From: Marivita sp. GX14005
GTDB lineage: Bacteria > Pseudomonadota > Alphaproteobacteria > Rhodobacterales > Rhodobacteraceae
Length of the DNA stretch: 64,000 nt
Assembly: GCF_023370775.1 (NCBI RefSeq)
Contig: NZ_JAMCCQ010000002.1
Coordinates: 248,001 to 312,000, forward strand
Reading direction: 5' to 3'
In this document: piece after piece, positions 44,822-50,409 of the stretch
How positions within the stretch are numbered: the stretch's first letter is position 1
Layout of the letters: every line of letters starts with the position of its first letter
Made by a program: the position numbers and the translations under genes
The notes under the pieces: model-generated
Database searches by the model: none
Seen by the model: the letters and a program-made list of their open reading frames with translations, nothing else
What the model was told of the DNA's origin: nothing

Positions 44822-46237
44822 TTATCCGGTCCGTCGGTGCGGTGTCAGGCGCCCGCTGCTGCGCGGCGCGATAAAATCGGCCGGTGTCGCCTGCTCGATC
44901 CGGTTCCGCCCCAACCCCTTGGCGCGATAAAGCGCGGTGTCTGCTGCGCGGCGCAGATCGGCGGTCGATTTGCGCTCCGATTTCCCGGTTAGCGCGATGC
45001 CGATACTGATCGTCGCGCGCATAAGCGTTCCGTCTTCCAAAGCTGCCGGCCCGGCGGATACGGCCTTGCGCAACCGCTCCGCGATGCACCGGGCCTGCGC
45101 CGCACCGACATTCGGCAGAACGATCAGGAATTCCTCGCCGCCATAGCGCGCCAGCGTATCGCCCCCGCGCAGGTTCGCTTTCAGAACGCCTGCGATATGA
45201 GCGAGAATCCTGTCGCCGGCCTCGTGGCCGTGATTGTCATTGATCTTCTTGAAATGATCCACATCGGCCAGCAGGATCGCCAAAGGGGCGGGATGTTCGG
45301 CCAGCGAGCGATCTGCGCGCTGCAAATATTCATCTGCATATCCGCGATTGTTCAGACCGGTGAGCCGGTCGGTGTAGGCCTTCTCTCCGAGCGCGTTCAG
45401 ACTTTCGCGCTCGCGATCGGCGTTTTGCTTGAGCCGCGCGAGCCGCCGGATGCGCAAGGCGAGTTCGGCAGGGGAGGCGGTGCAGGGGACATGGTCATGT
45501 GCGCCCAGGTCGAGCGGCGAGGCCATATGCGGTGCGGCATCGGAAACGAAGAGTATCCGGCTATGGCAGCTGCCCGGATGCGAACGCAACGCGCCAAGAA
45601 GATCGCGCGCCTCGGCCGGCCGGCTCGCTTCAAGCAGGATGTAGACGTCGGTTTCCGAGCCCGGATCGCGGCGGATATCGCGCTCATCCGCTGCATGAAG
45701 GACCAGCCCCGCCGACGCGGGCAACGCATCGCGCAGGGCTTCGGCGCGTTCGGATTCCCCTGCCGAGACGATCTGCGCGACGATGCGATGGGCGAACCCG
45801 CTCGGGGCTTCGGCGAAGCCGCCGGCATGTTCGACGGGCGCACGAACGCGGGTTTGCTCTGTCATCTGCCGCGATCGCATGACGTTTCTGAGCCGCGCGC
45901 GCAGTTCCGCCGGCTCTGCCGTATATTCGATCAGGTCATGCGCCCCTGCGATCAGCGCGCTGACCCGGGCGGAGTGATTTTCCGACGGGACCGCCACGAT
46001 GATCGTCGTCAGCTGCGTTTGGGGATTGGCGCGCAACGCCTTGCAGAACCGGTTGAGCTTCAGCTCCGGCAGATCGTGAGCCACGATCACGACATCCGGT
46101 GCGGTCTTGCGAATCTGCGCCAGCGCGTCGGTGCCTGTCTCTACAAGGGCAACGGTGTCGCAGACCGTTTTGACCTGCGCCTGCAAGCGAATGCGGCGGG
46201 TCGTTTGGGCGTCGAGTATCAGGACAATGCCGGACAC
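44822..46237 (-). CDS. PleD-like diguanylate cyclase with two degenerate receiver domains
   Basis: A 471-residue protein with receiver-like domain 1 (about 1-125), receiver-like domain 2 (about 155-275) and a C-terminal GGDEF domain making cyclic di-GMP. The active loop is GGEEF at about residues 366-370. An RGGD inhibitory site lies exactly five residues before it, so product inhibition is likely. In receiver 1, Asp55 is kept, but the second acidic residue of the DD pair (DAQ) and the conserved Lys (Tyr105 region) are not. Receiver 2 lacks a clear phospho-acceptor. This differs from a normal phosphorylation-switched PleD. Confidence 0.88.
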   Translation of the reverse strand: MSGIVLILDAQTTRRIRLQAQVKTVCDTVALVETGTDALAQIRKTAPDVVIVAHDLPELKLNRFCKALRANPQTQLTTIIVAVPSENHSARVSALIAGAHDLIEYTAEPAELRARLRNVMRSRQMTEQTRVRAPVEHAGGFAEAPSGFAHRIVAQIVSAGESERAEALRDALPASAGLVLHAADERDIRRDPGSETDVYILLEASRPAEARDLLGALRSHPGSCHSRILFVSDAAPHMASPLDLGAHDHVPCTASPAELALRIRRLARLKQNADRERESLNALGEKAYTDRLTGLNNRGYADEYLQRADRSLAEHPAPLAILLADVDHFKKINDNHGHEAGDRILAHIAGVLKANLRGGDTLARYGGEEFLIVLPNVGAAQARCIAERLRKAVSAGPAALEDGTLMRATISIGIALTGKSERKSTADLRRAADTALYRAKGLGRNRIEQATPADFIAPRSSGRLTPHRRTG

Positions 46238-46330: not shown

Positions 46331-46615
46331 ATGGCGGTTTCTCAGGATGCGGCAGAAGCGATCGCGCTAAGAGCCATTGCTTGGCTTGCCGGTAACGACG
46401 ATCTGCTGCCGGTCTTCATGGGCGCGACGGGTGTGGACGAAGCCGCGTTTCGCAATGGGCTTGCCGATCCCGATTTCCAGGCATCGGTTCTGGATTTCCT
46501 CATGATGGACGATGCATGGATCGTCGCCTTCTGCGACGCCGAGGCTTTGCCTTATGAGCGGCTGATGGAGGCGCGCGCTACATTGCCCGGCGGCGCACAG
46601 GTGCACTGGACGTGA
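46331..46615 (+). CDS. DUF3572 family protein
   Basis: A 94-residue acidic helical protein matching DUF3572, common in alphaproteobacteria: EAIALRAIAWLAGNDDLLP near the start and SVLDFLMMDDAWIVAFCD in the second half. In other species it often lies near pleD, as here, where it is divergent from the PleD-like cyclase. The HAD gene starts within its stop codon (GTGA). Function is unknown. Confidence 0.87.
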   Translation: MAVSQDAAEAIALRAIAWLAGNDDLLPVFMGATGVDEAAFRNGLADPDFQASVLDFLMMDDAWIVAFCDAEALPYERLMEARATLPGGAQVHWT

Positions 46616-47334
46616 GCGCCGGAACGGCCGCCCGGCCTGCCGCGATCCTCTTCGACAAGGACGGCACTTTATTCGATTTCCGCGCAACGTGGAACGCGTG
46701 GGCTGCGTCGCTGTTGACGCGCCTCGCCGGCGGAGACCTCGCCCGGGCCTCGATGCTCGGTGCGCGCATCGGCTTCGATGTCGAGCGTGCGGAATTCGAG
46801 CCCGGCAGCATCGCCATCGCCGGAACGCCGCTGGATGTCGCCAGCGCCCTCGCGCCGGCCATCGGCGGCCTCTCGATCCGGGACTTGGTCGACCTTCTCA
46901 ATGCCGACGCCGCGGCGGCGCCAATGGTCGAGGCGGTTCCGCTCGCCGAATTGTTCGACGACCTCGCCGCCGCCGATCTGCGGCTTGGCGTGGCAACCAA
47001 TGACGGCGAAGCGCCGACCATCGCGCATCTCGAAAAGGCAGGCTTGCGGGACAGGTTCGATTTCATTGCCGGCTCCGATAGCGGCTTCGGTGCCAAACCC
47101 GGCGCCGGTCAGCTTCTCGCGTTTTGCGAGACGGTCGGTGTCGGGCCGGAACGCGCGATCATGGTCGGCGACAGCACGCATGATCTGATCGCCGGGCGCG
47201 CGGCGGGGATGGGCGTGATCGCGGTGCTGACAGGCCTGGCCAGCCGCAGCGATCTGGCGCCATTCGCCGATGCGGTGCTGCCCGATATCGGACATTTGCC
47301 GGGCTGGTTGGGCCTGACGGTGAATAATCGCTAA
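46612..47334 (+). CDS. HAD family hydrolase (phosphoglycolate phosphatase-like)
   Basis: A 240-residue HAD-superfamily phosphatase. Motif I FDKDGTLFD carries the nucleophilic and general-acid Asp residues near 15-17. Motif II lies in LGVATND, motif III includes the Lys in GAKPGAGQ, and motif IV is MVGDSTHD. A helical cap domain lies between motifs I and II. The GTG start at 46612 overlaps the DUF3572 stop. Substrate unproven; phosphoglycolate phosphatase is a family guess. Confidence 0.87.
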   Translation: MSAGTAARPAAILFDKDGTLFDFRATWNAWAASLLTRLAGGDLARASMLGARIGFDVERAEFEPGSIAIAGTPLDVASALAPAIGGLSIRDLVDLLNADAAAAPMVEAVPLAELFDDLAAADLRLGVATNDGEAPTIAHLEKAGLRDRFDFIAGSDSGFGAKPGAGQLLAFCETVGVGPERAIMVGDSTHDLIAGRAAGMGVIAVLTGLASRSDLAPFADAVLPDIGHLPGWLGLTVNNR

Positions 47335-47403: not shown

Positions 47404-47994
47404 ATGCACGGATTGATTTTTCGAACGGTGGAGGCGTTCGTCACGGACAGTTTCGGGCTGGACAGTTGGACAAAAGCGCTCATCGCGGCCGATGTCCCGC
47501 TGTCGAGTTTCGAAGCGATGCTGCAATATGACAGCGTCTATTTCCCAGCTGTGCTCGACGCATGCGCGCGAACGCTCGACCGGTCGGAGGCGAATATCCT
47601 GGAGGATATCGGAACCTACCTGATCACCCGCCAGAACCATGTCAGCGTTCGCAGGCTCATGCGGTTCGGGGGGCAGGATTTTCCCGAACTTCTTTATTCG
47701 TTGGAGGATCTGCCCGGGCGCACACGGCTTGCCGTTCCGGGGCTCGATCTTCCGCGTATCGTCGTCAGGGAGGTCGAACCCCATTGCTTCGATCTTTGCT
47801 GCGAAGGCGAGTTGCCCGGTTTCGGGCATCTTCTTGTCGGTCTTCTGCGGGCCATGGCCGATGATTATGGCGTGCTTGCCGTTCTCGAACATCGCGGATC
47901 GAATGACGGGATCGAAGCGATAGCGGCGCGGATCGTCGATATCGGCTTTGCCGAGGACCGAGGATTTTCCTTTGCCAGGGCGATGCGCGCGTGA
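47404..47994 (+). CDS. H-NOX (heme NO-binding, HNOB) fold protein lacking the canonical heme-ligand residues
   Basis: A 196-residue protein with the H-NOX outline: MHGLIFRTVEAFVTDSFGLDSW is the family N-terminus and FGGQDFPELLYSLEDL precedes the ligand position. H-NOX proteins bind heme through a proximal His and a YxSxR motif, and signal NO to cyclases or kinases. Here the proximal position appears to be Pro104 (SLEDLPGRTR, where relatives have LDALH), and the YxSxR region reads FDLCCEGELPGF with no Tyr, Ser or Arg. Three Cys cluster at residues 128-133. It is translationally coupled to the next gene, a cyclase. Family membership is clear, but heme binding is doubtful. Confidence 0.85.
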   Translation: MHGLIFRTVEAFVTDSFGLDSWTKALIAADVPLSSFEAMLQYDSVYFPAVLDACARTLDRSEANILEDIGTYLITRQNHVSVRRLMRFGGQDFPELLYSLEDLPGRTRLAVPGLDLPRIVVREVEPHCFDLCCEGELPGFGHLLVGLLRAMADDYGVLAVLEHRGSNDGIEAIAARIVDIGFAEDRGFSFARAMRA

Positions 47995-48989
47995 TCGCGG
48001 CTCATGACCTGATGGCGCGACTGCGACCAATGCATCTTTGTGTCGATGGGTGCGGCTGTATCACCCAGGTCGGGCGCAGCCTGGACAGGATTGCCGGGGA
48101 AACGCTTCTGGGCAGACCCTTTTTCGACAGGGTCGCAATATTCGGCCCGGCTCGCCCGGTCTGCATGGCCGAGCTTGCCGGCCTTGAGACGCAGCCGATC
48201 CGTCTGAGCCTCACCGAAATGCCCGATATCGTTCTGCGGGGATGTGTCATTCCCGATGGCGACGGCGGCGCAATTATCGACCTATCGTTCGGGATCGCCA
48301 TCGTTGACGCGGTCCGGAAATTCAACCTGTCGGCACAGGATTTCGCCCCTTGCGACCTTGCGGTTGAATTGCTGTTCCTGCAGGAGGCCAAATCGAGCGC
48401 TATATCCGCAAGCTTCAGCCTGAACGCGCGTCTGAATGGCGAGAAACTCGCTGCCGAGTCCGACGCGGTGACAGACGAGCTTACCGGGCTCGGCAACCGC
48501 CGCGCCCTCGACAACGCGATGTCGAGGCTTGGCCGGTCGAATACGGCCTACGCCATGCTCCATCTCGATCTCGATCGGTTCAAGCAGGTGAACGATACGC
48601 TGGGTCATGATGTCGGTGATGCACTTTTGAAACATGCGGCGCGGGTCATGCGTCGGGTTCTGCGCAAGGAGGATGTCGTCGCGCGCATGGGCGGCGATGA
48701 ATTCGTGATCGTCTGCCCCGGGCTCGTCGACCGGGCGCGGCTCGACCAGTTGGCGCGCCAGATCATTGGCGATCTCTCCGCGTCGGTCGATCCACCACTC
48801 GCGAAGGTGCCGATCGGCGCCAGCATTGGCATCGCAATGGCGCGCAGCGATCGTAAGCTGGCACCCGACCACGCATTGAAACGCGCCGATATCGCGCTTT
48901 ACGCAGCGAAACGCTCTGGACGGGGATGCCACAGGTTCTGGCAGCCCGAGCTTGGCGAAACCCTTTGCGATATGGCGCCGGGCGAATGA
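47991..48989 (+). CDS. HNOBA-GGDEF diguanylate cyclase
   Basis: A 332-residue cytoplasmic protein with an N-terminal HNOBA-type (H-NOX-associated) domain (about residues 10-150, RPMHLCVDGCGCITQVG then GRPFFDRVAIFGP). A short coiled coil and a GGDEF domain follow, with active loop GGDEF at residues 234-238. The RKED inhibitory site is five residues upstream, so feedback by cyclic di-GMP is expected. The GTG start overlaps the H-NOX stop (GTGA), so the two proteins are very likely partners. The N-terminal VDGCGC carries extra cysteines. There is no EAL domain. Confidence 0.88.
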   Translation: MIAAHDLMARLRPMHLCVDGCGCITQVGRSLDRIAGETLLGRPFFDRVAIFGPARPVCMAELAGLETQPIRLSLTEMPDIVLRGCVIPDGDGGAIIDLSFGIAIVDAVRKFNLSAQDFAPCDLAVELLFLQEAKSSAISASFSLNARLNGEKLAAESDAVTDELTGLGNRRALDNAMSRLGRSNTAYAMLHLDLDRFKQVNDTLGHDVGDALLKHAARVMRRVLRKEDVVARMGGDEFVIVCPGLVDRARLDQLARQIIGDLSASVDPPLAKVPIGASIGIAMARSDRKLAPDHALKRADIALYAAKRSGRGCHRFWQPELGETLCDMAPGE

Positions 48990-49047
48990 AGGGGGCGAAA
49001 GCGCAATGCGGCTTGCGCACTGCCGGGGCCTGTCGCACTCTCGCCTC

Positions 49048-50409
49048 ATGAAACTTTTCGCACGGCTCTTGCTTTTGATTTGCCTATGCGGCGCGGTATC
49101 TCCCGAAGGAAGCATCGCGCAGGAAAGCGGGCAGCCATCCGGCACCATCGCAGTGGAAGACAGCGCCGAAACCGACGCTGCCATTGCAACGCGCATACGC
49201 GAAATCCTTGGGCAACTCGATGGGTTTGAGGATGTGACGGTCACCGTCAGCTCGGGTATCGTGACCCTGCGCGGAACCGCGATAGACGGTATGGCCGTGG
49301 CGCGGCTCAATGAGCTGGTCGGACGTGTCGAAGGCGTGGTGACGATTGAGAACAAGGTGCAGGAGACAACGGATGTCGCCCGCCGTCTCGACCCCGCGGT
49401 GGAGCGGTTCCGGCTTCGGTTCGAACAATTCGTCAACTATCTGCCGCTTGCCGCGATCGCGCTCGGTGCTTTCGCTGTCGTCGTTCTGGCCGGTTTCGCG
49501 CTCGCGCGGCTCGATAGGCCGTGGAGCCGCTTTGCGCCGAACGCGTTCATCGCCGATATCTATCGCCAGCTGATCCGCGTGGCTTTCGTGATCGCCGGGC
49601 TCGTGATCGCGCTCGATATCCTGAACGCAACGGCGCTTTTGTCGACCATTCTCGGCGCAGCGGGGATCATCGGGCTGGCCATCGGTTTCGCGGTCCGCGA
49701 CACCGTGGAGAATTTCATAGCTTCCATCATGCTGTCTATTCGCCAGCCGTTCCGACCCAACGACACGGTGGAGATCGAGGGCGATCAGGGCAAGGTCATT
49801 CGGTTGACGAGCCGGGCCACCATCCTGCTCAGCTTCGATGGCAATCATATTAGAATTCCCAACGCGACGGTGTTCAAAAGCCGTATCGTGAACTTCACGC
49901 GCAACGATGAACGGCGTTTCGTGATCGATCTCGGTGTGGCTTTCGACAGCGACCTCAACCGCGCGCAGGATCTGGCCTTGCAGACCGTCGCGGCGCTCCC
50001 CTTCGTGCTGGAAGATCCGGCGCCGGCGGTCTGGATCGAGAAGATGGGCGACAGTGCGGTCATTCTCAACGTCGCCGGGTGGATCCTGCAGCATAAGACA
50101 AGCTACGCGAAAGCGCGCAGCGAAGCGTGGCGATCCTGCCTTACCGCATTCGATCACGCCGGGATCGTCATGCCGGAAACGACGATCCGCATCGTCGGTC
50201 TCGATGGCGGCTCCGAAAGTTCTGCAGAGGATGCCACGCCCAGCCCGGACAAACGGCCGCGATCGAATGCCGAGGCAATCGCCGTGGCAACACAATCGCT
50301 GGGAGATGTAGCTGCGGAAATGGACCGGGAACTGAACCGTATCGTCGCCAGCGAACGCGCCGAGAAACAGGACAACGACCTTCTGCACAAGAATGCGCCG
50401 GAAGAATGA
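49048..50409 (+). CDS. MscS-type mechanosensitive channel with N-terminal BON domain
   Basis: A 453-residue exported/inner-membrane protein. A signal peptide (about 1-24) is followed by a periplasmic BON domain (about 45-115; IREILGQLDGFEDVTVTV and GIVTLRGTAIDG). Three membrane helices come next (about 133-153, 172-192 and 198-218); the last, TILGAAGIIGLAIGFAVRD, is the MscS pore helix. The MscS beta domain (QPFRPNDTVEIEGDQGKV) and a C-terminal cytoplasmic region follow. The last 65 residues are low-complexity and charged. It fits osmotic protection; tRNA-Gln lies 60 bases downstream. Confidence 0.88.
   Translation: MKLFARLLLLICLCGAVSPEGSIAQESGQPSGTIAVEDSAETDAAIATRIREILGQLDGFEDVTVTVSSGIVTLRGTAIDGMAVARLNELVGRVEGVVTIENKVQETTDVARRLDPAVERFRLRFEQFVNYLPLAAIALGAFAVVVLAGFALARLDRPWSRFAPNAFIADIYRQLIRVAFVIAGLVIALDILNATALLSTILGAAGIIGLAIGFAVRDTVENFIASIMLSIRQPFRPNDTVEIEGDQGKVIRLTSRATILLSFDGNHIRIPNATVFKSRIVNFTRNDERRFVIDLGVAFDSDLNRAQDLALQTVAALPFVLEDPAPAVWIEKMGDSAVILNVAGWILQHKTSYAKARSEAWRSCLTAFDHAGIVMPETTIRIVGLDGGSESSAEDATPSPDKRPRSNAEAIAVATQSLGDVAAEMDRELNRIVASERAEKQDNDLLHKNAPEE

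Follow-up and report, generated by a model that had tools for sequence, protein, structure and literature searches.

The 64,000-nucleotide stretch of Marivita sp. GX14005 DNA considered here (contig NZ_JAMCCQ010000002.1, positions 248,001 to 312,000; hereafter the window) carries an hnoX homologue whose 3′ end overlaps a diguanylate cyclase gene. Its product belongs to the H-NOX proteins, which are known as heme-based sensors of nitric oxide (NO); the residues that anchor the heme are replaced, both here and in most relatives from the family Rhodobacteraceae.

The hnoX Gene and Its Product

The features of the gene are as follows (the two protein types named in the third line are defined in the next section).

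47404..47994, + strand: hnoX homologue of 196 amino acids with the HNOB/H-NOX fold, lacking the proximal His (intact open reading frame, Pfam match, alignment, fold prediction)
47713..47715, + strand: Pro104 (codon CCC), aligned with the proximal heme His (His105 of Alr2278; alignment)
47752..47754, + strand: Pro117, kept in both types of H-NOX protein (172/173 and 36/36; alignment columns)
47800..47814, + strand: residues 133-137 (CEGEL), aligned with the YxSxR motif, with Tyr replaced by Cys133 (alignment)

The Pfam HNOB profile (PF07700) recognizes the product at 67.7 bits (1.5e-18; curated cut-off 25.5), and this is the single HNOB match found in a profile search of the whole genome. Fold prediction, based on 91 members of the cyclase-linked group and four sequences of the other type (L131 and L135 were omitted from the 93 rows selected), assigns the H-NOX fold with high confidence. 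Structure 2kil, that of a Shewanella oneidensis H-NOX mutant lacking the proximal His, is listed among the fold matches. The viral fold library gave no match at E ≤ 0.001, and the difference in Z score between the NO-bound and unliganded states of soluble guanylate cyclase (sGC) was too small to be of use.

In the alignment to Nostoc Alr2278 the proximal His column is occupied by Pro104, and the segment CCEGELPG falls opposite HYQSTRAG, which carries the YxSxR motif. The original prediction, made from the letters alone, had described an intact gene for an H-NOX protein with Pro104 instead of the proximal His, no YxSxR motif and translational coupling to a cyclase. The profile match and the Alr2278 alignment confirm both replacements at the positions it named, and the intact reading frame, the 4-base overlap and the conserved pairing in relatives bear out a cyclase-coupled H-NOX branch. 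His79 and His127, considered as substitute proximal ligands, were rejected.

Loss of the Proximal Histidine Across the Family

The distribution of the protein was examined fully in a sample of 120 Rhodobacteraceae genomes, one per genus. An HNOB match is present in 88 of them: the cyclase-linked type to which the window protein belongs occurs in 83 and another type in 17, with 13 genomes carrying both; one further genome has just a split gene. The proximal His is absent in 77 of the 83 genera with the cyclase-linked type, so the loss is not peculiar to the window protein. The column holds Pro in 62 genera, His in six and other residues (Asn, Gly, Ala, Thr, Gln, Arg, Lys, Glu) in 15; in the other type of the same sample it holds His in 16 and Gln in one.

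A larger set was derived from 239 open reading frame hits in 237 loci, which gave 213 unique sequences, or 209 after the exclusion of four pieces of two broken genes (L221 and L228). A long branch (support 99) separates a group of 173 cyclase-linked sequences from the remaining 36. This clade defines the group and replaces an earlier motif rule, which was too narrow (137/213). In the group the His column contains 138 Pro, 13 His and 22 others, and the YxSxR motif occurs in 0/173 sequences versus 33/36 outside it, where the proximal His is kept in 35/36 (one Gln). The set of 173 was put together from the one-per-genus sample, genomes of the same genus, additional picks from a 296-genome search and the best 80 of at least 562 named loci; its percentages, and those of the 209, are therefore biased towards the window, and the 83-genus figures are fairer. 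The 296-genome search was a separate sample of the family; HNOB matches, irrespective of type, occur in 223 of its genomes, and only part of these matches were taken into the sequence set.

The nearest named relatives among the matches listed are from Marivita. A class-level search of 289 genomes gave matches in seven, four of them in the same family; the three outside it score at most 92 bits, and two that were inspected carry LH or MH together with YxSxR. All genomes listed in the order-level search belong to the same family, and this search is thus uninformative on wider spread. A separate loss outside the group is seen at L138:1425-2078 (+), where an H-NOX protein that has YxSxR and is partnered by a hybrid histidine kinase carries Gln instead of the proximal His.

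The Partner Cyclase

The cyclase gene is organized as follows.

47991..48989, + strand: diguanylate cyclase gene, GTG start, 332 amino acids, overlapping hnoX by 4 bases (47991-47994)
47991..48323, + strand: N-terminal alpha/beta domain, residues 1-111, HNOBA-like, below the Pfam cut-off
48357..48467, + strand: long helix, residues 123-159, probably a coiled-coil linker
48465..48926, + strand: GGDEF domain with the GGDEF motif and the inhibitory-site motif RxxD (RKED)

The GGDEF profile scores 135.9 bits and the active-site motif is present. The HNOBA profile gives 14.0 bits (cut-off 23.4) on the window cyclase, and 88/99 relatives match it at E ≤ 0.1. A same-strand cyclase lies directly downstream of hnoX in 172/173 group members, the sole exception ending at a contig edge; under a mechanical start rule, 124/172 of the gene pairs overlap by exactly 4 bases. 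The GGDEF motif is found in 170/172 partner cyclases; among the 171 with a recognized motif, 168 have RxxD. In the partner cyclase of Marivita lacus (L023, L060) the patterns used recognize no GGDEF motif, and the copy may be degenerate or frameshifted.

Conservation and History

The median ratio of nonsynonymous to synonymous substitution rates (dN/dS) of hnoX is 0.15 (0.08-0.23), calculated from 15 same-genus sequences in the 62 of 105 pairs with usable synonymous divergence, many pairs that involve the window sequence being saturated. The gene is clearly under purifying selection. Of the 196 columns, 37 are invariant when 12 diverse group sequences are aligned. Trp22, Tyr42, Gly146 and Tyr155 are each found in 173/173 group members and Arg106 in 171/173; Gly146 is kept, like Pro117, in 36/36 sequences of the other type. 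An alignment of 95 rows, of which four are of the other type, shows no variation at Gly70 and Gly146. These two residues probably correspond to the hinge glycines, which are described as conserved in all H-NOX groups (PMC8738867).

Two pairings in the family bear on the origin of the group. At L234:1984-4394 (+) an H-NOX protein with the proximal His and YxSxR adjoins an HNOBA-GGDEF-EAL protein (HNOBA 23.1 bits, just below the cut-off); this is possibly a pairing of the ancestral type. In another genome (L233) an H-NOX protein with both features adjoins an HNOBA histidine kinase. Because of these pairings, the cyclase-linked group probably goes back to an H-NOX of the heme type that had an HNOBA protein as its partner. 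The four further neighbours of the other type that were scanned include three hybrid histidine kinases and one protein without an assigned family (L003, probably the wrong frame), so that the six neighbours comprise four histidine kinases, one GGDEF-EAL protein and one without family.

A tree comprising 83 group members and six outside rows requires at least 7 changes between His and another residue; if His was never regained, 11 losses fall on the side of the rooted tree that has 85 tips. The deep branches are weak, and Dinoroseobacter shibae branches early in one tree and is nested within the group in the other, so the trees leave both His and Pro as candidates for the group ancestor. A stepwise conversion of a heme-based NO sensor of a diguanylate cyclase into a non-heme regulator can be proposed only tentatively. 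In this scenario YxSxR would have been lost in the group ancestor, with Cys often replacing Tyr, and the His would have changed repeatedly afterwards; the present signal of most members would then be something other than heme-NO, perhaps sensed via the old pocket or Cys133, with the NO response of D. shibae as the exception.

Relation to Known Systems

The window protein fits the already described 'Group 5' of H-NOX proteins, in which fewer than 10% have the proximal His, most have Pro, Cys residues are not conserved and the signal is given as unknown (PMC8738867). The window protein has Pro, its clade has six His and 62 Pro in 83 genera, and no Cys column reaches 90%. The loss of the His itself is thus not new, and the counts given here agree independently with the published description. 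The Group 5 section consulted makes no mention of Cys133, which occupies the former Tyr position of YxSxR in 114/173 sequences.

The orthologues of Rhodobacter (Cereibacter) sphaeroides and D. shibae fall within the clade of the window protein. Both genomes were assigned by plasmid identity: that of D. shibae to strain DFL 12 (NC_009955.1, of which a 3-kb piece recurs in further records), and that of R. sphaeroides to the species, from which all four listed matches at 100% come, strain 2.4.1 being one of them. The former (L180) has Pro at the His position. The latter (L174) shares the HNOBA-GGDEF partner (Dgc1) and the absence of YxSxR, but it keeps the proximal His (GLDDLHDR) and is cited as a heme-based sensor that inhibits the adjacent Dgc1 when NO-bound (PMC8846402, PMC7232146). 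The NO-responsive protein is therefore one of the few His carriers of the group.

The H-NOX proteins of Paracoccus denitrificans and R. sphaeroides are both stated to be without the axial His. In P. denitrificans, deletion of hnoX decreases biofilm and BapA, from which the authors suggest that H-NOX inhibits DgcA; they nonetheless propose that NO acts through H-NOX (PMC5588039). The Pden_3719/dgcA (Pden_3720) pair and Group 5 as a whole resemble the window pair in lacking the proximal His, with mostly Pro at its position, in having no conserved Cys cluster and in the GGDEF gene that overlaps or adjoins hnoX; the numbers of diguanylate cyclase and EAL genes are comparably small (P. denitrificans was compared by description).

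The other H-NOX type of the family matches the same family profile but retains His (35/36) and YxSxR (33/36). Heme-free signalling is described in vitro for the H-NOX of Vibrio cholerae, a Cys-based redox sensor (PMC7108781); unlike the window protein, it keeps the proximal His and uses a Cys/zinc site that has no conserved counterpart in the group.

The H-NOX domain of the sGC alpha subunit is heme-less and serves as a structural or regulatory domain. Unlike the window protein, it is part of a eukaryotic heterodimer and stands beside a heme-bearing beta subunit.

In the literature consulted, mostly passages of papers, neither the loss of YxSxR, the repeated change of the His column and the contrast with D. 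shibae nor a heme-binding measurement of a Pro form was found. The additions made here are the type-wide loss of YxSxR, the recurrent substitution of the His position, the placing of D. shibae among the His carriers and the nir genes of the window genome.

NO and Cyclic di-GMP in the Host Genome

Three GGDEF matches were obtained in the window genome: two are strong and lie in the window, and the third is weak and belongs to a GGDEF-EAL protein. The EAL profile matches twice. P. denitrificans is described as having two proteins of each kind (PMC5588039), and D. shibae as having two diguanylate cyclases and two phosphodiesterases. The FIST (NosP-type) profile gave no match in the window genome. 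Within G000:C5:64705-76718, a full-length Cytochrom_D1 match (486 bits) with more matches alongside is followed about 2.6 kb on by a 460-residue frame of the COX1 family, of NorB size. The region probably represents a nir-nor cluster, and since nir-type genes are present, the organism probably makes, meets and reduces NO. The sole HNOB protein of a probably NO-making organism is thus devoid of the heme ligand. Among genera with the group, His is kept in 4/25 nir-positive (strong Cytochrom_D1 match by our reading) versus 2/58 nir-negative ones (Fisher p = 0.064, uncorrected for relatedness), which is only a trend.

Possible Function of the Heme Ligand-Free Protein

According to the explanation favoured here, to which we give about an even chance, the Group 5 H-NOX homologue, a fold devoid of the proximal ligand and the propionate motif, serves the cyclase of the overlapping gene as regulatory partner and restrains it without His-ligated heme. 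H-NOX would bind the HNOBA/PAS-like N-terminus of the cyclase and would restrain its cyclic di-GMP synthesis. Its default state could resemble an H-NOX with a broken Fe-His link, that is, the 'NO-on' state of an ordinary H-NOX; rupture of this link is thought to be required for H-NOX activation (PMC12329717). The output could then be set by the amount of H-NOX or by an input other than His-ligated heme-NO. The S. oneidensis mutant without the proximal His reportedly mimics the inhibitory state.

Heme could still be bound, and NO still sensed, through another axial ligand (His2 or Cys133, for example) or with none from the protein. His2 is found in 161/173 group members versus 0/36 sequences of the other type, the pocket positions inspected remain hydrophobic and Pro117 is nearly fixed; the P. 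denitrificans authors assume that H-NOX senses NO (PMC5588039), and the nir-type genes suggest that the Marivita strain meets it. However, His2 is equally common (12/13) in members that keep the proximal His, and therefore it is not a replacement ligand in origin, while 12 different residues occur at column 104 among the 173 sequences. Retention of heme is considered unlikely. The original prediction had suggested a branch that is not an NO sensor, a reading that stays tentative: the D. shibae protein, cited as NO-responsive, is likewise devoid of YxSxR, although it has the His.

The hydrophobic pocket positions inspected and the two invariant glycines, kept when both heme-anchoring features are gone, could also mean that another small molecule has taken the place of heme in the old pocket; its binding would move the halves hinged at the glycines and thereby gate the cyclase. 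A ligand is neither known nor predicted, and the conservation may reflect folding alone; this explanation is distinctly unlikely.

A thiol sensor, in which oxidation or S-nitrosation at Cys133 replaces heme chemistry, finds a parallel in the V. cholerae protein, and Cys133 lies at the former Tyr position. The original prediction had envisaged a redox cluster of Cys128, Cys132 and Cys133, which does not hold: Cys128 occurs in 4/173 and Cys132 in 5/173 sequences (window included), and only Cys133 is common. Even Cys133 is absent in 59/173, in agreement with the lack of conserved Cys in Group 5 (PMC8738867), and the thiol sensor appears quite improbable. Decay of hnoX after the loss of its sensor function, as broken copies in a few genomes might suggest (an in-frame TAA in G280 (L228), split matches in G072 (L221) and G382), is highly improbable, and the pseudogene reading is rejected, given the low median dN/dS, the invariant columns and the HNOB matches in most genomes of the family sample.

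The Pfam label of the family is heme-NO-binding and the papers speak of NO sensors, yet the heme ligand is absent in nearly all sampled genera with the cyclase-linked type. If these proteins are heme-free, models of NO-to-cyclic di-GMP signalling derived from D. shibae should not be extended to most of the family, and what Group 5 senses becomes testable by comparison of His and Pro orthologues sharing the same partner.

Neighbouring Genes

A receiver-GGDEF protein is encoded at 44822-46237 (-) of the window, separated by 1.2 kb from the beginning of the hnoX-cyclase pair, and both strong GGDEF matches of the genome thus lie within about 4 kb. Immediately upstream of hnoX, at 46331-47334 (+), there are a DUF3572 gene and a gene of a HAD-family hydrolase. 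The downstream open reading frame at 48952-50409 (+) appears by eye to encode a BON and small mechanosensitive channel-like protein.
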